The translations under genes and the position numbers were made by a program. This document shows, piece by piece, positions 1-11,938 of a DNA stretch of 11,938 nt; positions within the stretch are counted from its first letter, which is position 1, and each line of letters opens with the position of its first letter. The notes below the pieces were generated by a model. That model ran no database searches. It worked only from the letters and a program-made list of their open reading frames with translations, and was not told the DNA's origin. This stretch comes from a bacterium (lineage in GTDB: Bacteria > RBG-13-66-14), in the NCBI GenBank assembly GCA_035528375.1, contig DATKYS010000019.1, forward strand, positions 1 through 11,938. The letters are read 5' to 3'.

Positions 1-909
1 AACAGCGCCTTCCAATGTACCAACAGCATTATAGGCCCAGGGTAATATTCCCTTTTCTGTATCAATCATCTCAAGGAGCAATTCGCTTTCACCCCCAAAA
101 TTAATCGTACCTCGGCCATAAATAAAGCCGTCAATTCCATACATCTTACCTAATTCCTGTGCGGTTGCGCTTGAAATTAAACCGCTATCCTGCGTAAACC
201 GAATCTCCTCAAGTAACTTTGCGAGGTTTTCACGATCCACAACCTGCCAACCGTGACGAACCAGTTTGACTATCAACTTATCAATGACCTGCAATTCTTT
301 TTGTCTTGGTACGTTTCCCAAATCCCAAAAAGAGATTTTTCTGATTCCTTTCGAGGCAAGATAAGATTTTGTATCGTCCAAATCCTTTACGACTGCCGAG
401 ATGACACTGTCAAGACTCGTATTAAGGTAATCACCATAAACCGGAATCTCATAAGCCCATGCAATATAGGAGCGTTCAACATCAATGCCCTTCAAAATCA
501 AAGTCGAGTTTTTTTCTCCTGCTAATTCGTTATCGTAAAAGGTTCCGTACAGGAAGAGATCTATGCCGTACATTTCCCCAAGCCGCTTCATTGTATCCGG
601 ATCTACCAAACCTGAGCCGGTAAATTCGATTTCTTCGAGCAACTGCTGTAGACGAGTTCGGTCAACGACATCAAATTTTCTTTGCCTAACCAGGGATATT
701 TTAAGTCGGCTTAAAAAGTCATCCTCATTATATATTACCGAACCACTATTCCCGATATCCCAAATTGCAATTGTCGAATACTCTCTTGTGTCAAGCCTAT
801 CTCCCAAGTCTTTGGCAATATTTTCTGCAATCGCATCAAAATCAACTGCTAAGGCCTGAGAAAAACAAACCAGCAGCACCAACAAAGAAACACGGCGTGA
901 ATAACCCAC
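1..909 (-). CDS. Secreted protein with two tandem CsgG/FlgO-like domains (partial)
   Basis: The frame reads open from a GTG at 909-907 to the window edge (303 codons, C-terminus missing). GGAGGG lies just upstream of the GTG, with short spacing. Residues 1-21 form a Sec signal peptide (basic MGYSRR, a hydrophobic core, ending AQALA-like in SQALA). Two repeats about 143 residues apart follow. Each has a WD(I/L)GN strand (50-54 and 195-199), a VVDR motif (81-84 and 223-226), an LLEEI-FT segment (90-97 and 232-239), LG-MYGID (110-117 and 253-260) and a (L/I)YG turn (120-122 and 263-265). This pattern is typical of the CsgG/FlgO/TolB-N-like fold, often found in periplasmic or outer-membrane proteins. 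There is no lipobox cysteine, so it is probably soluble in the periplasm. The gene is visibly AT-rich with AT-ending codons, unlike all its neighbours, which suggests transfer or a compositional island. The family call is by motif only; the function is unknown. Confidence 0.72.
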   Translation of the reverse strand, partial: MGYSRRVSLLVLLVCFSQALAVDFDAIAENIAKDLGDRLDTREYSTIAIWDIGNSGSVIYNEDDFLSRLKISLVRQRKFDVVDRTRLQQLLEEIEFTGSGLVDPDTMKRLGEMYGIDLFLYGTFYDNELAGEKNSTLILKGIDVERSYIAWAYEIPVYGDYLNTSLDSVISAVVKDLDDTKSYLASKGIRKISFWDLGNVPRQKELQVIDKLIVKLVRHGWQVVDRENLAKLLEEIRFTQDSGLISSATAQELGKMYGIDGFIYGRGTINFGGESELLLEMIDTEKGILPWAYNAVGTLEGAV

Positions 910-971: not shown

Positions 972-1994
972 CTACAGCATCCAGCCGATTGTGACCCGCC
1001 AGGATTGGCCCAGCTCGGGGCGTCCAAACCCCACGGCGAAGTCCGCGCCCAGGCCGCCGAGGGTGAAGCCCACCCCGGCGCGCAGGTCGTCCTCCCCGTG
1101 ATACCCGACCCGCAGGGCCGCCACGCCGCCGATGGTGTACTCCGCCGCCGCGGACCAGCGCCAGTCGTCGGAGAAGTCCGCCATTCCCCCCACCGCGACT
1201 ACCAGCCCCTCCCAGGTGAACGCGAGGGCGCCCCGCACCCGGCGCTGACCCAGGCTCCGCACGTCGTAAAGCTGGATGTTGGGCTGGATGAAGTTCTCGC
1301 ACGTGACCGCCGCGTACAGCCACCGCCAGACGATGGGCACCGCGAAGCCCAGGTCCATCCCGAAACCCTGATCCCCCGCCCCGGCCACCTCCCGGGCGAA
1401 GACGCGAAAGTTTAGGCCCAGGTAGTAGCCCGGCCGGTACTCGGGCGCCTGGCTCACCCAATCCTCCGGCTCCTCGTAGGTCTCCACGTACTCCTCGACC
1501 TCGCCGGTGTCCTCCTCTTCCTCCTCCTCGGTGAAACTTATGTCCTCGGGGAGGATGACCTTCGTCCCCAATCCGATGGACCAGCCGATGTTTATCGCCG
1601 TGGCCGTGTCGTGGTAGTCCTGACCCGTGGGGCGGCCGGTCTCGTCGTAGCCGGGAATGGCCCCGGCGTCGGAGCGGTCCACGTCGAGGACGAGCGTCCC
1701 CAGGCGCAGTAGGCCGGTGATGGGGTAGGTCAAATCCAGGGATTGGCGGTTGACCTCGGGAATCGCGGCAAAGGGCATGGCGTAGGTCGCCCCGATGCTC
1801 ACCCCCGCGGTGTAGTCGGCGAGCAGAGGGTTGGCGCCGGGGAGGTAGGAGGGCTGCCCGGGGACGGCGACGGCCGCCTCGCCGAAGACGTACTCCCGCG
1901 CGCCGTAGGCCTCGCTGAAATCGCCCAGGGGGTCCGTCCCCCCGGCGGCGAGCGTCAGGACGGGCAGGCAGAGGATGAAGAGGAGTTTACGCAT
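972..1994 (-). CDS. PorV/PorQ-like outer-membrane beta-barrel protein
   Basis: A 340-residue protein with a signal peptide at 1-17 (MRKLLF, hydrophobic core, LAA). The segment at 31-59, beginning GAREYVFGEAAVAV and ending ANPLLA, resembles the N-terminal hallmark of PorV/PorQ/UPF0164 barrels (GAR-lGmGgA-vAv...NPAgLa). Alternating hydrophobic strands run to the end, for example 212-232 and 256-340, and the last strand closes with WRVTIGWML, an aromatic C-terminal end typical of barrels. A strongly acidic stretch at 156-178 (15 of 23 residues Asp or Glu, including six consecutive Glu) interrupts the barrel and is probably a loop. The ATG lies 9 bases after the stop of the preceding gene, so the two are probably co-transcribed, although the ribosome site is weak. 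Family members act in outer-membrane transport or in type IX secretion shuttling; the exact role here is unknown. Confidence 0.6.
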   Translation of the reverse strand: MRKLLFILCLPVLTLAAGGTDPLGDFSEAYGAREYVFGEAAVAVPGQPSYLPGANPLLADYTAGVSIGATYAMPFAAIPEVNRQSLDLTYPITGLLRLGTLVLDVDRSDAGAIPGYDETGRPTGQDYHDTATAINIGWSIGLGTKVILPEDISFTEEEEEEDTGEVEEYVETYEEPEDWVSQAPEYRPGYYLGLNFRVFAREVAGAGDQGFGMDLGFAVPIVWRWLYAAVTCENFIQPNIQLYDVRSLGQRRVRGALAFTWEGLVVAVGGMADFSDDWRWSAAAEYTIGGVAALRVGYHGEDDLRAGVGFTLGGLGADFAVGFGRPELGQSWRVTIGWML

Positions 1995-2003
1995 CCGTTT
2001 TTA

Positions 2004-2813
2004 TCATCCGAAGAGGACCCGCGCCCGCCAGGCGGCCAGGCGGATGGTGGCGGCGTCCAGGTACCCCAGCGCCCACCAGCGCCCCTCCCGGTGCCGCACC
2101 GCGTTCAGGGTCAACGCGCCCCAGCCGAGCCCGAAGACGGCGAGGTCGGTCAGCCACTCGTCCTTGCGGTCCAGTTGGTTCGGCTTCTGTGTGTCGGCCT
2201 CGGACGACGGGTTGAGCACCCTGTAGTATCCGTGACGGAACAGGAAGGCATGGGCGCTCTCATGGGCCAGAATCGAGCCGACGGCCAGCGGGTCGTCCCG
2301 GAAGGCCTCCGCGATATAAATCTGCTGCGGCTCGGGGAGCTCGGGCACGCCGGTCATCGGCGGCCGCTCGGTCACCCGCACCAGCCCCGGGACCTCGAGC
2401 CAATCGCTGAACTCGACCGGCACCGGATCCTCGCCCGTCCAGGCGGCCAGAACCTCCTGGAATCGAGTCGGGTCCCCGTGGACCAGGAAATCCCGGTAGA
2501 GCGTCTCGACGTCCAGCGGACCTTTCGCGGCGTCCCCGCGGACGTAGCGCAGGACGAAGTCCACCTCGTCCAGCAGGGCGGGGTCCACGCCGGTCGGCTC
2601 CTCCACGGGCTCCAGGCTGTTCAGGAGAAAAACCCGGACCAGGAGGTCCCGCTTTTTTCCCCAAAATCCCTTCCTGCCGGCACCCCTCAGGCGGACGGTT
2701 CCCCCGCTCTCGAATCCCCCGGGGAGCGGAAAGCGGAGGCGAACCCCCTTAGTATTCAGCTCCACCGCGTCCCCGCGGGCGGCCGCCGCCGGGGAGACGA
2801 AGACGTACTCCAT
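2004..2813 (-). CDS. DnaJ-C-terminal-like domain joined to a HExxH metallopeptidase-like domain
   Basis: A 269-residue protein without a signal peptide or membrane segment, so probably cytoplasmic. Residues 4-65 resemble the C-terminal substrate-binding beta domain of DnaJ/Hsp40: VSPAAAARG, then a PLPGGFESGGTVRLRGAG stretch (30-46) and a (G)DL-V-V-like RDLLVRV (55-61). No J domain and no zinc fingers are present. A central part (66-160) is unrecognised. At 184-188 is HESAH inside SILAHESAHAFLFRHG, a zincin-type HExxH helix. DEWLTDLAVFGLG at 218-230 could supply a third metal ligand (E219 or D223). The ATG directly abuts the TAG of accA, and GAGGA inside the accA tail serves as ribosome site, so translation is probably coupled to accA. 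The peptidase activity and the DnaJ homology are both inferences from motifs. Confidence 0.6.
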   Translation of the reverse strand: MEYVFVSPAAAARGDAVELNTKGVRLRFPLPGGFESGGTVRLRGAGRKGFWGKKRDLLVRVFLLNSLEPVEEPTGVDPALLDEVDFVLRYVRGDAAKGPLDVETLYRDFLVHGDPTRFQEVLAAWTGEDPVPVEFSDWLEVPGLVRVTERPPMTGVPELPEPQQIYIAEAFRDDPLAVGSILAHESAHAFLFRHGYYRVLNPSSEADTQKPNQLDRKDEWLTDLAVFGLGWGALTLNAVRHREGRWWALGYLDAATIRLAAWRARVLFG

Positions 2814-3773
2814 CTAATCCTCGGCGTACTCCCCCATGACCCGGAATTTGTCGTAACGCTTCTGGAGCAGCTCGTCCACGGGGAGCTTGGTGAGCTCGGC
2901 CAGGTCGGCGACGAGGACCTCCTTGACGATCTGGGCCGTCTCGTCCACGCCGTTGTGCGCCCCACCCAGGGGCTCGGGCAGGACGCGGTCCACCACGCCG
3001 AGGTCCACCAGGTGCCTGCCCGAGACGCGGAGCGCCTGGGCGGCTTCCTGGGCCTGGGCCTGGTCGCGCCAGAGAATCGCCGCGCACCCCTCGGGGCTGA
3101 TGACCGAGTAGTAGCTGTTCTCGAGCATGTACACCCGGTCGCCCACGCCGATGCCCAGGGCGCCGCCGGAGCCGCCCTCGCCGATGACCACGATTATTAT
3201 CGGCACCCGCAGGGTGAACATGTCCCGGATGTTGCGGGCGATGGCCTCGGAGATGCCGCGCTCCTCGGAGCCGATGCCGGGGTAGGCGCCGGTGGTGTCG
3301 AGGAAGGAGATGAGGGGAAGGCCGAAGCGGTCGGCCAGGTCCATGATCCGCCGCGCCTTGCGGAAGCCCTCGGGGTGGGGCATGCCGAAGTTCCTTTGTA
3401 GCTTCTCCTTGGTGGAGCGCCCCTTCTGGTGGCCGATGAGCGCCACCGGTCGCCCCTCCAGCCGCCCCACGCCGGTCACCATGGCGTGGTCGTCGGCGAA
3501 GTTCCTGTCCCCGTGGAGCTCCACCCAGTCGGTCAGGATGCGCTGCACGTAGTCCAGGGTGTAGGGGCGCTGGGGGTGTCGCGCCACCTGGACCCGCTGC
3601 CAGATGGTCAGGTTCGCGTAAATCTGCTCCTTGAGCTTTTCCAGCTTGGAGGAGAGGGTTTCTATCTCGTCGGCGAAGCCCACGGGGCCTTCGGCGTCGA
3701 GCTTCTTCAGCTCCTCGATGCGTCTGGTGAGGTCGAAGATCGGCTGTTCAAAGGCGAGCTGGGCGAACTCCAT
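2814..3773 (-). CDS. accA: Acetyl-CoA carboxylase carboxyltransferase subunit alpha
   Basis: A 319-residue protein, the same length as E. coli AccA and collinear with it. It forms the alpha half of the carboxyltransferase (alpha2beta2 with AccD), which moves the carboxyl group from biotinylated BCCP to acetyl-CoA to give malonyl-CoA, the first committed step of fatty-acid synthesis in the cytoplasm. Visible family blocks are RHPQRPYTLDYV (65-76), GDRNFADD (88-95), IGHQKGR (113-119), RNFGMPHPEG (127-136), DTTGAYPG (159-166), EERGISEAIARN (170-181), the glycine-rich oxyanion block GEGGSGGALGIGVGD (198-212) and SVISPEGCAAILW (223-235), then PEPLGGAH (266-273). E. coli has DTPGAYPG, so Thr161 is a small difference. 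The ATG at 3773 is preceded by GGAGGA. It is the first gene of its cluster; no convincing promoter was found in the spacer. Confidence 0.97.
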   Translation of the reverse strand: MEFAQLAFEQPIFDLTRRIEELKKLDAEGPVGFADEIETLSSKLEKLKEQIYANLTIWQRVQVARHPQRPYTLDYVQRILTDWVELHGDRNFADDHAMVTGVGRLEGRPVALIGHQKGRSTKEKLQRNFGMPHPEGFRKARRIMDLADRFGLPLISFLDTTGAYPGIGSEERGISEAIARNIRDMFTLRVPIIIVVIGEGGSGGALGIGVGDRVYMLENSYYSVISPEGCAAILWRDQAQAQEAAQALRVSGRHLVDLGVVDRVLPEPLGGAHNGVDETAQIVKEVLVADLAELTKLPVDELLQKRYDKFRVMGEYAED

Positions 3774-4630: not shown

Positions 4631-4663
4631 AAAAAACGACGGCCCTCAAACGGTCAGGGCGTC
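4631..4663 (-). terminator. Intrinsic terminator of the leftward pfkA-to-SLT cluster
   Basis: On the minus strand GACGCCCT (4663-4656) pairs with AGGGCCGTC (4646-4638) with one bulged C. The loop is about 9 bases, and G plus six T residues (4636-4631) follow. The 5' arm lies in the last codons and stop of the transglycosylase gene, so the stop codon sits at the edge of the loop. Confidence 0.65.
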
Positions 4664-5289
4664 GGAGGGACGTTGGTGATGGTCCCGTCGGGGGCGATGT
4701 ACACGGGAGCCGAGGACGCGCCGCCGGTCATCTCCACCTTCCCCTCGCCCGCCCCGCCGTAGCGGCGGAAATTTTCTAAAACCAGGGCCACGTAGCGCTG
4801 GGTCTCGGGGTAGGGCGGCACAGCGCCGTAGTACTCCACGGACCGGGGTCCCGCGTTGTAGGCGGCCAGGGCGAGGCGCAGGTCGCCGTCGAAGCGCTCG
4901 AGCATCGCGCGCAGGTATCGGCAGCCGCCGTCCACGTTGGCCGTGGGGTCCCAGGGGTCCGTGACGCCCAGCTCCCGGGCGGTGGCGGGCATGAGCTGCA
5001 TCAGGCCCATGGCGCCCGAGCCGGAGACGGCCCTCGGGTAAAAGGCGCTCTCCACCTTCACCACCGCCTTGACCAGGGCGGTCTCCAGACCGTAGCGCCC
5101 GGCGGCGGACGCGATCAGGGGGGCGAAGTTCTCTTCGTTGGAGGCGGAGGCGGCCAGCGCCTCGGGGGTAGGCACGTAGAGTCGGGGATGAGCGGGGACG
5201 TTGGTGATGACGCCGTCGCGGATGACCACCTCGTCGGCCCGGGCGGTCAGGAGGAAAAGGAGGGTCAACGCGAAGGTCCGCCTGAGCAT
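4654..5289 (-). CDS. Periplasmic lytic transglycosylase (SLT/GH23 family)
   Basis: A 211-residue protein that would cleave the MurNAc-GlcNAc bond of peptidoglycan to yield 1,6-anhydro ends. The ATG at 5289 was chosen because GGGGTGA lies just upstream and the protein then begins with a signal peptide (MLRRTFALTLLFLLTARA); a longer upstream frame overlaps the preceding gene and lacks signal character. The SLT domain (about 54-178) shows the catalytic glutamate in VKVES (E80), then GAMGLMQLMPATA (92-104), AAYNAGPRSV (142-151) and PETQRYV (161-167). Just after the signal, and again at the C-terminus, is a DG-ITNVP motif (25-32 and 201-208), resembling the DUF4124-like segment often found beside SLT domains. 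The gene is last in the cluster, 26 bases after the LytR_C gene, and its end overlaps a terminator. Confidence 0.92.
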   Translation of the reverse strand: MLRRTFALTLLFLLTARADEVVIRDGVITNVPAHPRLYVPTPEALAASASNEENFAPLIASAAGRYGLETALVKAVVKVESAFYPRAVSGSGAMGLMQLMPATARELGVTDPWDPTANVDGGCRYLRAMLERFDGDLRLALAAYNAGPRSVEYYGAVPPYPETQRYVALVLENFRRYGGAGEGKVEMTGGASSAPVYIAPDGTITNVPPTP

Positions 5290-5315
5290 CGCTTCACCCC
5301 GCGGCGGCCGGCGGC

Positions 5316-6107
5316 CTACCCGCCGCCGAGGACCACCTGCAGATCGTAGGGTATCCCGGTCACCGAACCGGGCAGGCCGAGGGCCTTCTTCAGGGCCAGG
5401 GCGTACTCGAGCTTGTCCGGCGTGCAGGAGATGGTGGTGCGCTCGCAATCGAAGGTGCTGTTGTTGCGGAAATCCACGACGGTCAGCCCGAACCCCTCGA
5501 GCTTTTTCGCCGTGCGGGAGGCCATGCCGGCGATGCCGCTGCCGTTGAGCACCTCGGCGGTCAGCCCGGACGCCCCTTCGGGCAGCGCGCCGGTGTCGGG
5601 CGCCGCGGCGAGAACACCCTCGATGTCCAGGCCCAGGACGAGGGTGATGTCCACCCGACGCGGGGCGCCGAATCCGAGCAGGTCGGACAGACGTTCGGCG
5701 AAGGACCGCAGCTCCTCGCTCTCGCCGTTGTAGTAGACGACGTTGACGTTCCCGGAGCCCAGAACGGCAATGGGCACGGCGCCGTACTCGGTCTGACCGA
5801 GCTGGGAAAGCTGGTACTCAACGTCTTTGAGCCTCTCGGCGTCCCCCGGCGTGTGCCAGACCTCCACCGAATAGCGCCTCGGGAGGACGATTTCGTCGGG
5901 CGGCTCGTTACCCTCGGGCAGCTCGTTGACCGTGGCGATTTCGCCGTCGTGCGTCTCGCCGTCCGGCGCATTCTCCTCCGTCTCCCAGGGTCGCCAGAGG
6001 ACGAGCACCACGACGACCGCCAGCACGCAGACCACCACGACGGCTATCGTTCGGCGCTTCTGCTTGCGCCGCCGGGACTTCATCATCTCGACCCGACCCT
6101 CGATCAC
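5316..6107 (-). CDS. Membrane-anchored LytR_C domain protein
   Basis: A 263-residue protein with a highly basic N-terminus (KSRRRKQKRR, 10-19), one TM helix (about 21-38) and an acidic, proline-containing linker (42-75); the rest should be outside the cytoplasm. Residues 182-260 match the LytR_C domain (PF13399 type): AEVLNGSGIAGMASRTAKKL (184-203), a GFGLTVVDF strand and the closing YDLQVVLG. Residues 80-162 look like a diverged second copy ending in VDITLVLGLD. No LCP catalytic domain is present, so it is not itself a wall-teichoic-acid-type ligase. The start is GTG at 6107 with GGGGGAT upstream; the ATG pair at residues 8 and 9 is an alternative. It sits between a propeller lipoprotein and a lytic transglycosylase, supporting an envelope role. 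The exact function is unknown. Confidence 0.75.
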   Translation of the reverse strand: MIEGRVEMMKSRRRKQKRRTIAVVVVCVLAVVVVLVLWRPWETEENAPDGETHDGEIATVNELPEGNEPPDEIVLPRRYSVEVWHTPGDAERLKDVEYQLSQLGQTEYGAVPIAVLGSGNVNVVYYNGESEELRSFAERLSDLLGFGAPRRVDITLVLGLDIEGVLAAAPDTGALPEGASGLTAEVLNGSGIAGMASRTAKKLEGFGLTVVDFRNNSTFDCERTTISCTPDKLEYALALKKALGLPGSVTGIPYDLQVVLGGG

Positions 6108-9406: not shown

Positions 9407-10210
9407 GTGCAATCCTACGACCGGCTGCTCGACACACTGAGAACCCTCCTCTCCCCGGGCGGGTGCGCCTGGGACGCCGAACAGGACGTCCGCAGCATGG
9501 CCCGGTATCTGATCGAGGAGTCCTATGAATTCTACGACGCGGTGGCGGAGGATAGTTCCACCGGGGTCATCGAGGAACTGGGGGACGTTCTGTACGTGGC
9601 TAGCTTCATCGCCCTGCTGGCGGAACGTGACGGGACCTTCACCCTGGCCCAAGTCTGCGACGGCGCCGAGGAGAAGATGCGCCGCCGCCACCCCCACGTA
9701 TTCGATCCCGGGGGGCCGAAGCTGGACGACGCCGACGCAGTCATCCGCCACTGGGAGAAGTTGAAGCACGGGGAGGCCGAGGAGCCGACCGAGCTGCCGC
9801 TGAGCCGGGCGCTCGAGAAAGTCCCCGTGCACACCCCGCCGCTGCTGCGGGCGGTCCGGGTCCAGGAAAAGGCGGCCCACTACCACTTCGACTGGCCCGA
9901 GGTGGGCGGCGTCCTGGACAAGCTGGAGGAGGAGACGGCCGAGCTCCGCCGGGCCGTGGGGGAGGGGCGGAGGGATCGAATCGCCGACGAGCTAGGCGAC
10001 GTCCTCTTCTCCCTGGCCAACCTCGCCCGGTTTTTAAAAATGGACCCCGGGCAGGCGCTGATCGGAACCGTAAAGAAATTCCAGGAGAGGCTGCGGTGGA
10101 TGGAGACACGGTGCGTCGCCGGGGGCGTATCGCTCTGCGACTTGAACCTACCCGAACTCGAGGCCCTGTGGCAGAAGGCCAAGCTCCAGCTAGAAAACGA
10201 CGCCTCCTGA
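9407..10210 (+). CDS. mazG: Nucleoside triphosphate pyrophosphohydrolase MazG
   Basis: A 267-residue cytoplasmic enzyme that hydrolyses (d)NTPs to monophosphate and pyrophosphate, linked to nucleotide-pool cleaning and, in E. coli, to ppGpp turnover. It is collinear with E. coli MazG (263 residues). Two MazG domains are visible. The N-terminal one has GCAWDAEQ (19-26), EESYE (37-41) and EELGD (56-60). The C-terminal one has FDWPEVG (161-167), EEETAE (174-179) and DELGDVLF (194-201). These are the EExxE and ExxD metal sites. RRHPHVF (93-99) is the usual linker block. The GTG start is supported by GAGGAG 7 bases upstream and a near-consensus promoter. The downstream membrane-protein gene overlaps its end. 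Confidence 0.95.
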   Translation: MQSYDRLLDTLRTLLSPGGCAWDAEQDVRSMARYLIEESYEFYDAVAEDSSTGVIEELGDVLYVASFIALLAERDGTFTLAQVCDGAEEKMRRRHPHVFDPGGPKLDDADAVIRHWEKLKHGEAEEPTELPLSRALEKVPVHTPPLLRAVRVQEKAAHYHFDWPEVGGVLDKLEEETAELRRAVGEGRRDRIADELGDVLFSLANLARFLKMDPGQALIGTVKKFQERLRWMETRCVAGGVSLCDLNLPELEALWQKAKLQLENDAS

Positions 10211-11938
10211 CATCCCGGGGGGCCTATATTCTCCTCGTGACGGCCGTCGCGGTCCTGGCGGGGATCGGCTACCACACCCTCGGCGGCGGGTTGGACGACG
10301 GCGCCTACCTGCAACTTTCCTTCTCCGACCAGCTCCTGGCCGGGGAAAGCTTCCGCGTCAACGTGGACGACCCCTCGAGCGACGCCACCGCCAACCCCCT
10401 CCTGGTAGGGCTCCTGTCGGCGGGACGCCTCATTTTCGGCGGGGAGGCCGGGGCCCGGGTGCTGGGGGTGGTGATCCTCGTCGGCTTCGGTCTCTGCGCC
10501 TTTTGGCTGGCGGCCAACCTCGGCGCCGAGCCGATCATCGCCTGCATCGCCGGACTGGCGGTGGCCCTCTCCCCCTCGGTCGTCACGGCTTCCTCTTCGT
10601 TACAACCCATCGCCTTCGACGCCCTTCTGTTGGTCATCGCCGTCATCGGCGTGCTTCGCGGCATCGGAACTCTCGCGCTCGCCGCCGGCGCCCTCACCCT
10701 GACCAGCTACCCGGGCATGTTCGCCGGGCTGGCCTTCGCGCTGGCCGTGCCGGCCATAGACGCCGTCAAGCGCAAGCAGTTGGAGAAGCGCTACCTCCTG
10801 CTTCTGATCCCCTTCGCCCTGGCGGCGGCCCGGGCCATCAGCGGGCCGATTCTCTTCGAATCCAACCCCCTGAGGGAGGTGCTCGCCCCCCTCGCCCTCT
10901 CCGGCGCTCCCGCGATGGAGCAGCGTCTCACGCTGTTGGCGGCGCTGCCGATTCGAATCTTTACCCTCCTGGGCGTCTCGACCGTCGGATTCCTTATGTC
11001 CGCGGCCGCCTTCTCCCTCGCCGTCCCGAAGCTCAGGTGGCGGACCTCCCTGGCGGCGATCGTCATTTCCGTGGCGGTGACCTACCTCGTGATGCGGGGC
11101 ACGGAGCTCATGGTGCTGTGGGCGGCGCCCCTGGTGGTGGTTGCCGGCGTCACCTGGTGCGGCTCCTACTGGAAGGAACACAAAAAGGTCCGGTTGTGGG
11201 TCACGGTGGGGGTGGCCCTGGCTTTCGTGGCGCCCCCGCTCTTAACCTTCCCCCAGAGTGGCATCGAGGGGGGAGTACTGGACCTCTGCCGCCGCGTGCC
11301 CGAGATCCTGCCCCCCCGGACCGTCATCGCCACCTCCCACCCCGGGGCCTACCGCTGCATCGCCGACGTCCCGGTGGTGGACCTCTCCGGCGCGCTTCCG
11401 CCAAAAATCTGCGAGGGCCCGCGCGACCTGGCGGTGGTGCTCGAGAGCTGGGCCCACCGGGTGCGGGTCCGCCGCCCGACCTACGTCGTGAGCGACGGGG
11501 TGAACATCGCCGAGGTGCGTTCAACCCCGCTTCTCGAGCGGGTTTTCCCGGAAAACGACGGCCCCGACGCCCTCTGGCGCATAGACTGGGAGCCGCTGGA
11601 TCGCCGGGAGGGGCTCTGGAACCCCGGGGTGCTGGAACGCATCGGCGATGGGAGGCTCATCAACTGGCTCGACATCGGCGGTGGCGGAGAATCTGCCGGA
11701 ATCGTCAACCTCGAGACCTACGGGGCCGCCAATCTCGACTGGAAGCTGGTCTGGCTGCCGGTGGAGCTGTGGGGTCGGAGCACCACCCTCGCCGACACCT
11801 GCCGCGTCTGCAGGAACGCCGAGGCCGTCCGCGTTGACGTGCTTCTGCCGCCCCATACGCGCGTCGTCTGCCTGCGCCTCTTCGTGTGCGGCGCCGGGGA
11901 ACCGGAGTGCCGCGCCGAATCGGGCGCCTACTCGACCT
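10168..11938 (+). CDS. Polytopic membrane protein, GT-C glycosyltransferase-like (partial)
   Basis: The reading frame is open to the window end (590 complete codons, C-terminus missing). GTG at 10168 is chosen because GAGG lies 4 bases upstream and it supplies a basic N-terminus (ARKRRLLTSRG) before the first TM helix; it overlaps mazG by 43 bases. GTG at 10237 is an alternative but has no ribosome site. About ten hydrophobic helices fill residues 19-365. After the first comes GGGLDDGAYLQL (acidic pair D43-D44), then AGESFRVN and TANPLLVGLL, resembling the first periplasmic loop of GT-C enzymes (DDa-isfryA-nl-eGkG-v-N...TsPLw). Past the helices a soluble domain contains PRTVIATSHPGAY and VPVVDLSGAL (from about 383), a phrase common in the C-terminal part of GT39/GT87-type proteins. 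Such enzymes move sugars from lipid-linked donors outside the membrane. The family call is by pattern only and the substrate is unknown. Confidence 0.6.
   Translation, partial: MAEGQAPARKRRLLTSRGAYILLVTAVAVLAGIGYHTLGGGLDDGAYLQLSFSDQLLAGESFRVNVDDPSSDATANPLLVGLLSAGRLIFGGEAGARVLGVVILVGFGLCAFWLAANLGAEPIIACIAGLAVALSPSVVTASSSLQPIAFDALLLVIAVIGVLRGIGTLALAAGALTLTSYPGMFAGLAFALAVPAIDAVKRKQLEKRYLLLLIPFALAAARAISGPILFESNPLREVLAPLALSGAPAMEQRLTLLAALPIRIFTLLGVSTVGFLMSAAAFSLAVPKLRWRTSLAAIVISVAVTYLVMRGTELMVLWAAPLVVVAGVTWCGSYWKEHKKVRLWVTVGVALAFVAPPLLTFPQSGIEGGVLDLCRRVPEILPPRTVIATSHPGAYRCIADVPVVDLSGALPPKICEGPRDLAVVLESWAHRVRVRRPTYVVSDGVNIAEVRSTPLLERVFPENDGPDALWRIDWEPLDRREGLWNPGVLERIGDGRLINWLDIGGGGESAGIVNLETYGAANLDWKLVWLPVELWGRSTTLADTCRVCRNAEAVRVDVLLPPHTRVVCLRLFVCGAGEPECRAESGAYST

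Follow-up and report, generated by a model that had tools for sequence, protein, structure and literature searches.

The gene at 2004..2813 on the minus strand of the window (the whole stretch of DNA analyzed, 11,938 nucleotides) encodes a protein in which a single DnaJ-type C-terminal subdomain precedes a predicted HExxH metallopeptidase domain. This domain architecture is well supported, and we infer metal binding, proteolysis and substrates. Judged from the sequences, the protein would be a variation on the theme of a chaperone-type binding module joined to a peptidase, in a pairing of domains that is new; no description of the combination was found in a limited search of open-access papers. 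The gene and its parts are as follows.

2004..2813, minus strand: DnaJ_C-peptidase fusion gene, whole open reading frame, 269 aa (ORF list, orthologs and dN/dS)
2607..2813, minus strand: single DnaJ_C (Hsp40 CTD) subdomain, residues 1-69 (profile, hhalign, structure and Pfam matches)
2322..2606, minus strand: helical segment, residues 70-164, modeled with helices at 78-92, 102-112 and 115-125, a strand at 133-136 and a low-confidence loop at 145-159
2007..2321, minus strand: HExxH peptidase core of an unnamed family, residues 165-269 (family profile, alignment and model)
2250..2264, minus strand: H184-E185-S-A-H188, putative HExxH zinc-binding/catalytic motif (H184, E185 and H188 invariant in 26 sequences)
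2145..2159, minus strand: E219-W-L-T222-D223, gluzincin-like ExxTD motif with E219 as probable third zinc ligand (E219 and T222 invariant in 26 sequences)
2061..2066, minus strand: G250-Y251, invariant family motif preceding the last helix (alignment of 26 sequences)

The open reading frame is a real gene. Codon comparison of the orthologs gives a dN/dS of about 0.2-0.45 over the full length of the gene, and the fusion protein is therefore under selection. Between genera, purifying selection is weaker in the N-terminal part, and the DnaJ_C half changes more rapidly than the peptidase half.

The N-terminal DnaJ_C subdomain

The earlier note read the N-terminal 65 or so residues as the substrate-binding beta domain of Hsp40 without its J domain and proposed a profile comparison with DnaJ_C; the match was found at both the profile and the structure level. 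When PDB sequences are searched with a profile of residues 1-69 built from the five orthologous proteins, DnaJ chains come out on top (best, DnaJ 6jzb, E 1.8e-10). When hhalign compares the same residues with aligned DnaJ proteins, among them the one from this genome, the E values are 1.3e-7 for the second CTD and 8e-7 for the first. The predicted structure of residues 1-69 superposes on DnaJ CTDs with Z scores of 8-10 (the matches at Z 9-10 with 1.5-2.3 A over 60-72 residues), and a BFVD fold search returned only DnaJ-type matches to the N-terminal part, along with weak rows. The Pfam DnaJ_C model (PF01556) scores 32.7 bits in ortholog L004, 22.7 in L005, 16.6 in L003 and 12.3 in the window protein, with L002 not listed, and only L004 exceeds the gathering cut-off of 26.6 bits. 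Since the window protein alone is below this cut-off, the orthologs are needed to establish the match. On these profiles and models, residues 1-69 form a single substrate-binding subdomain of the DnaJ C-terminal type. An early N-terminal match, L007, was rejected as a ribosomal-protein locus that does not encode DnaJ.

The subdomain is CTD-II-like and has in common with DnaJ/Hsp40 the signature A-A-x-G-x-x-x-E-L...PxGxxSGxxxRLRGxG and the order of strands. DnaJ differs in the remaining parts, as the fusion protein carries one subdomain with a peptidase attached and lacks the J domain, the zinc finger and the second CTD. There is no Pfam J-domain match and no HPD in the window protein sequence, nor are there CxxCxGxG repeats, and residues 1-69 are the only part that matches DnaJ. 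By its sequence, the protein is thus not a J-domain protein, the defining domain being absent. In a hand alignment, the residues of the Ydj1 hydrophobic pocket appear only partly retained (L19 and L26), T21 being polar, and client binding by the DnaJ_C module is therefore not assured.

The genome has a complete DnaJ of its own on one contig, and the fusion is thus no substitute for the ordinary chaperone. A second dnaJ is split over two contig ends (L022 1-862 and L023 1426-1775, on contigs C131 and C17), which looks like a break in the assembly and not in the gene itself.

The HExxH domain and its unnamed family

The C-terminal half had been described in the earlier note as metallopeptidase-like, with HESAH at residues 184-188 and a possible acidic ligand downstream, and the sequences and the model support this description. 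H184-E185-S-A-H188 and E219-x-L-T-D223 are conserved in all five orthologous proteins, and the first motif and the acidic ligand recur in remote relatives. Over 26 aligned sequences A183, H184, E185, H188, E219, T222, G230, G250 and Y251 are invariant and D223 is nearly so (E in one relative), making the common motif E-x-x-T-[D/E]. An AlphaFold model made with the five orthologous sequences only has a pLDDT of 54 and a poor peptidase half; when remote relatives are added, the pLDDT is 85.1 and the pTM 0.85, a rise that supports the alignment. In the resulting fold, predicted with confidence, the helix at 175-193 carries H184, E185 and H188, and E219 sits close to where a second helix (216-228) begins. 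H184, H188 and E219 are predicted to be zinc ligands, with E185 as the catalytic base.

A PDB profile search with residues 68-269 produced chance matches only (D7 protein, DHFR). The ortholog profile of residues 68-269 weakly matched (E 0.025) a protein of 308 aa that shares these motifs, in a 9.2 Mb genome. Searching from this relative gave 111 matching genomes in a single genus (genomes of 5.5-12 Mb) and 10 in another family, and a combined profile added three more distant relatives. The unnamed HExxH...ExxTD...GY family occurs in most g234 genomes (g234 being the genus), in part of those of family f261 and in other families; its loci include L041, L044-L083 and L090-L092. Alignment of the fusion's peptidase domain to two other lineages by hhalign gives E values of 1.7e-10 and 1.6e-8, and all invariant residues are common to the family and the window protein, from the strand at 165 to the last helix. 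A profile made from non-Coatesbacteria proteins only scores 40.5 bits in the window protein, at most 5 bits in 1000 shuffles and at most 12.7 in other HExxH proteins (DA1-like included), a control that is not fully independent because the ortholog profile had a part in finding the relatives and the shared motifs guided their trimming. By these profiles and alignments, the window protein is a member of the family.

No Pfam or NCBIfam model recognizes this family above its cut-off, and the finding points to a broad, conserved group of HExxH proteins that has a name in neither collection. Among the relatives scanned outside Coatesbacteria none has a DnaJ_C domain; their partner domains are different or none is recognized. 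The genus-g234 members that were read carry a C-terminal zinc-ribbon-like CPxC...CxxC segment. A plasmid search with the peptidase domain found no relatives. Two candidates were set aside, namely the sole IMG/VR match of the L041 protein (L043), which is a different HExxH protein, and a weak profile match (G098/L040), which is an unrelated protein. Alignment A5, which included longer fragments of the relatives, was discarded because it forced the N-termini of these fragments to align with the DnaJ_C part.

After the DnaJ rows, the solved structures closest to the model are mostly HExxH peptidases: BepA (Z 5.6 over 126 residues), PprI (5.3) and IrrE (5.2) lead the matches to the C-terminal half, followed by an M. 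tuberculosis regulator (4.7), BlaR1 (3.1), MATCAP, a cold aminopeptidase and a DPP III family member, and these modest values of 3-6 indicate a shared arrangement, not a shared function. Like the IrrE/PprI and ImmA-type peptidases (M78, PF06114), the protein has a Glu helix after its HExxH helix; structural matches to them have Z scores of 5-6 (4.7-6.1 over IrrE, PprI and related chains). It differs from them in having no recognized HTH or GAF-like domain, an extra conserved LGYL segment and another fusion partner. PF06114 matches neither the window protein nor its orthologs, and there are weak sub-cut-off matches in remote relatives of the peptidase half. BepA and other M48 peptidases likewise have HExxH and a Glu helix. 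BepA joins its protease to a protein-interaction domain (TPR) and is periplasmic, whereas the window protein has no signal peptide that can be seen and carries DnaJ_C.

The DA1-like family (PF12315; cut-off 25 bits) scores 17 bits in the window protein and lower in the orthologs, over a 28-residue stretch of the form AHExxHAxL...GY. It was rejected as the best family since the unnamed family scores far higher for the window protein, and the match is best taken to reflect similarity confined to the HExxH helix. No LIM family match was seen in a Pfam scan of the window protein, in which, unlike DA1, the upstream domain is DnaJ_C. By the curated cut-offs, the protein is a member of neither M78 nor DA1. 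In several bacterial genomes (L025-L032 and L034), DA1-like peptidases are preceded by arrays of zinc-binding repeats of treble-clef or LIM-like type.

Proposed function and alternatives

Hsp40s normally pass clients to Hsp70 for refolding, and the established role of the J domain is stimulation of the Hsp70 ATPase. Because the J domain is missing, the fusion protein should not stimulate this ATPase in the normal way. No signal peptide is evident from reading the sequence, and the protein is therefore probably cytosolic. The reading that we favor, and consider reasonably probable, is a cytosolic zinc peptidase with a built-in DnaJ_C module that recruits substrate or DnaK. Residues 165-269 would bind zinc and cleave proteins. 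The DnaJ_C module would grip hydrophobic stretches that are exposed on damaged or unassembled proteins, or else the DnaK C-terminal tail, and in this way would guide substrates to the peptidase while bypassing the step of the Hsp70 cycle that needs the J domain. On the simplest reading the outcome would be degradation rather than refolding. A more far-reaching version, which we put forward tentatively, is that a J-domain-free Hsp40 module on a small zinc peptidase makes a single-chain, ATP- and Hsp70-independent protease for misfolded or unassembled proteins selected by the Hsp40 code, perhaps with subunits of the neighboring acetyl-CoA carboxylase among them; that enzyme as a substrate is only a possibility. 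If the client-binding part does serve a peptidase, the Hsp40 grip would have been rewired from refolding to destruction within about 270 residues and with no ATPase.

The main rival takes DnaJ_C as a docking or dimerization module (for the DnaK tail, a DnaJ partner or AccA) that localizes a regulatory peptidase of the IrrE/ImmA style with one target. The resemblance of the peptidase half to IrrE/PprI and related regulators is consistent with this, as is the presence of one DnaJ_C subdomain and not the usual pair. There is also a precedent for single-target cleavage, as IrrE is reported to cleave one specific repressor, DdrO (PMC5552922). However, no repressor or HTH gene adjoins the fusion gene, whose neighbors are accA and a gene for an outer-membrane-like protein, and we regard docking as rather unlikely.

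Some HExxH domains are non-proteolytic, and the C-terminal half might instead be an alpha-ketoglutarate HExxH-type metal-dependent hydroxylase or a catalytically silent binding fold to which DnaJ_C presents a peptide. One relative, L074, weakly matches the NCBIfam model for the aKG-HExxH-type peptide beta-hydroxylases (17.1 bits against a cut-off of 40), proteins that are named in PMC12257519. Against this, neither the window protein nor any ortholog matches that model, E219 and T222 show no variation and D223 almost none in what is a gluzincin arrangement, and the structural matches from VIA-align are mostly peptidases, all of which makes this reading less likely still. Most improbable is that the N-terminal part is an unrelated small beta domain that has converged on the DnaJ_C fold. 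UreE chains (N-terminal domains) do superpose on it with Z scores of 3.8-4.4, and the window sequence by itself falls short of the Pfam cut-off, but DnaJ is far better both by sequence and by fold (Z 9-10), L004 passes that cut-off, and convergence is already contradicted by the profile evidence.

Distribution and gene neighborhood

Orthologs of the fusion (88, 75, 60 and 56% identity) are present in four other genomes of the same family of Candidatus Coatesbacteria, so that, counting the window genome, five genomes from three genera have kept it in a conserved gene context. It is absent from two further genomes of the family, which are 70-75% complete, from all seven other genomes of the phylum and from the remaining genomes among 386 sampled across the tree. 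In a collection of 84,980 species, a pattern-based scan picked up two loci only, both in Coatesbacteria. An IMG/VR search with the fusion alignment returned no relatives, and PADLOC and PHROGs gave nothing convincing. As far as searched, the fusion is confined to one bacterial family and may thus be a lineage-specific tweak.

The adjoining genes are the following.

2814..3773, minus strand: accA, carboxyltransferase alpha, whose stop codon abuts the ATG of the fusion gene
972..1994, minus strand: gene 3' of the fusion gene (gap of 9 bases), outer-membrane-like protein with a signal-peptide-like N-terminus

The upstream neighbor is accA at all five loci. The gap between the accA stop and the fusion ATG is 0 bases in the window, L002 and L003/L011, about 9 in L004 and about 45 in L005. 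We infer that the fusion gene and accA are co-transcribed because of the zero-base junction and the conserved gene order. A homolog of the outer-membrane-like gene also lies 3' of the fusion gene in L003/L011, L004 and L012. The product of 972..1994 has an acidic insert (EEEEEEDTGEVEEYVETYEE) and no match in a Pfam scan.

Elsewhere in the window, the gene at 1-909 (minus strand), which runs off the window start, encodes two copies of VVDR..L..LLEE....GL...., a pattern reminiscent of CsgG-like proteins. At 4654-6107 the open reading frame of a lytic transglycosylase (SLT) overlaps a LytR_C open reading frame if a far-upstream TTG is taken as its start; the start is probably an internal ATG at the signal peptide (MLRRTFALTLLF). 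The plus-strand gene at 10096-11937 encodes a membrane protein of 614 aa with many hydrophobic segments and runs off the window end.
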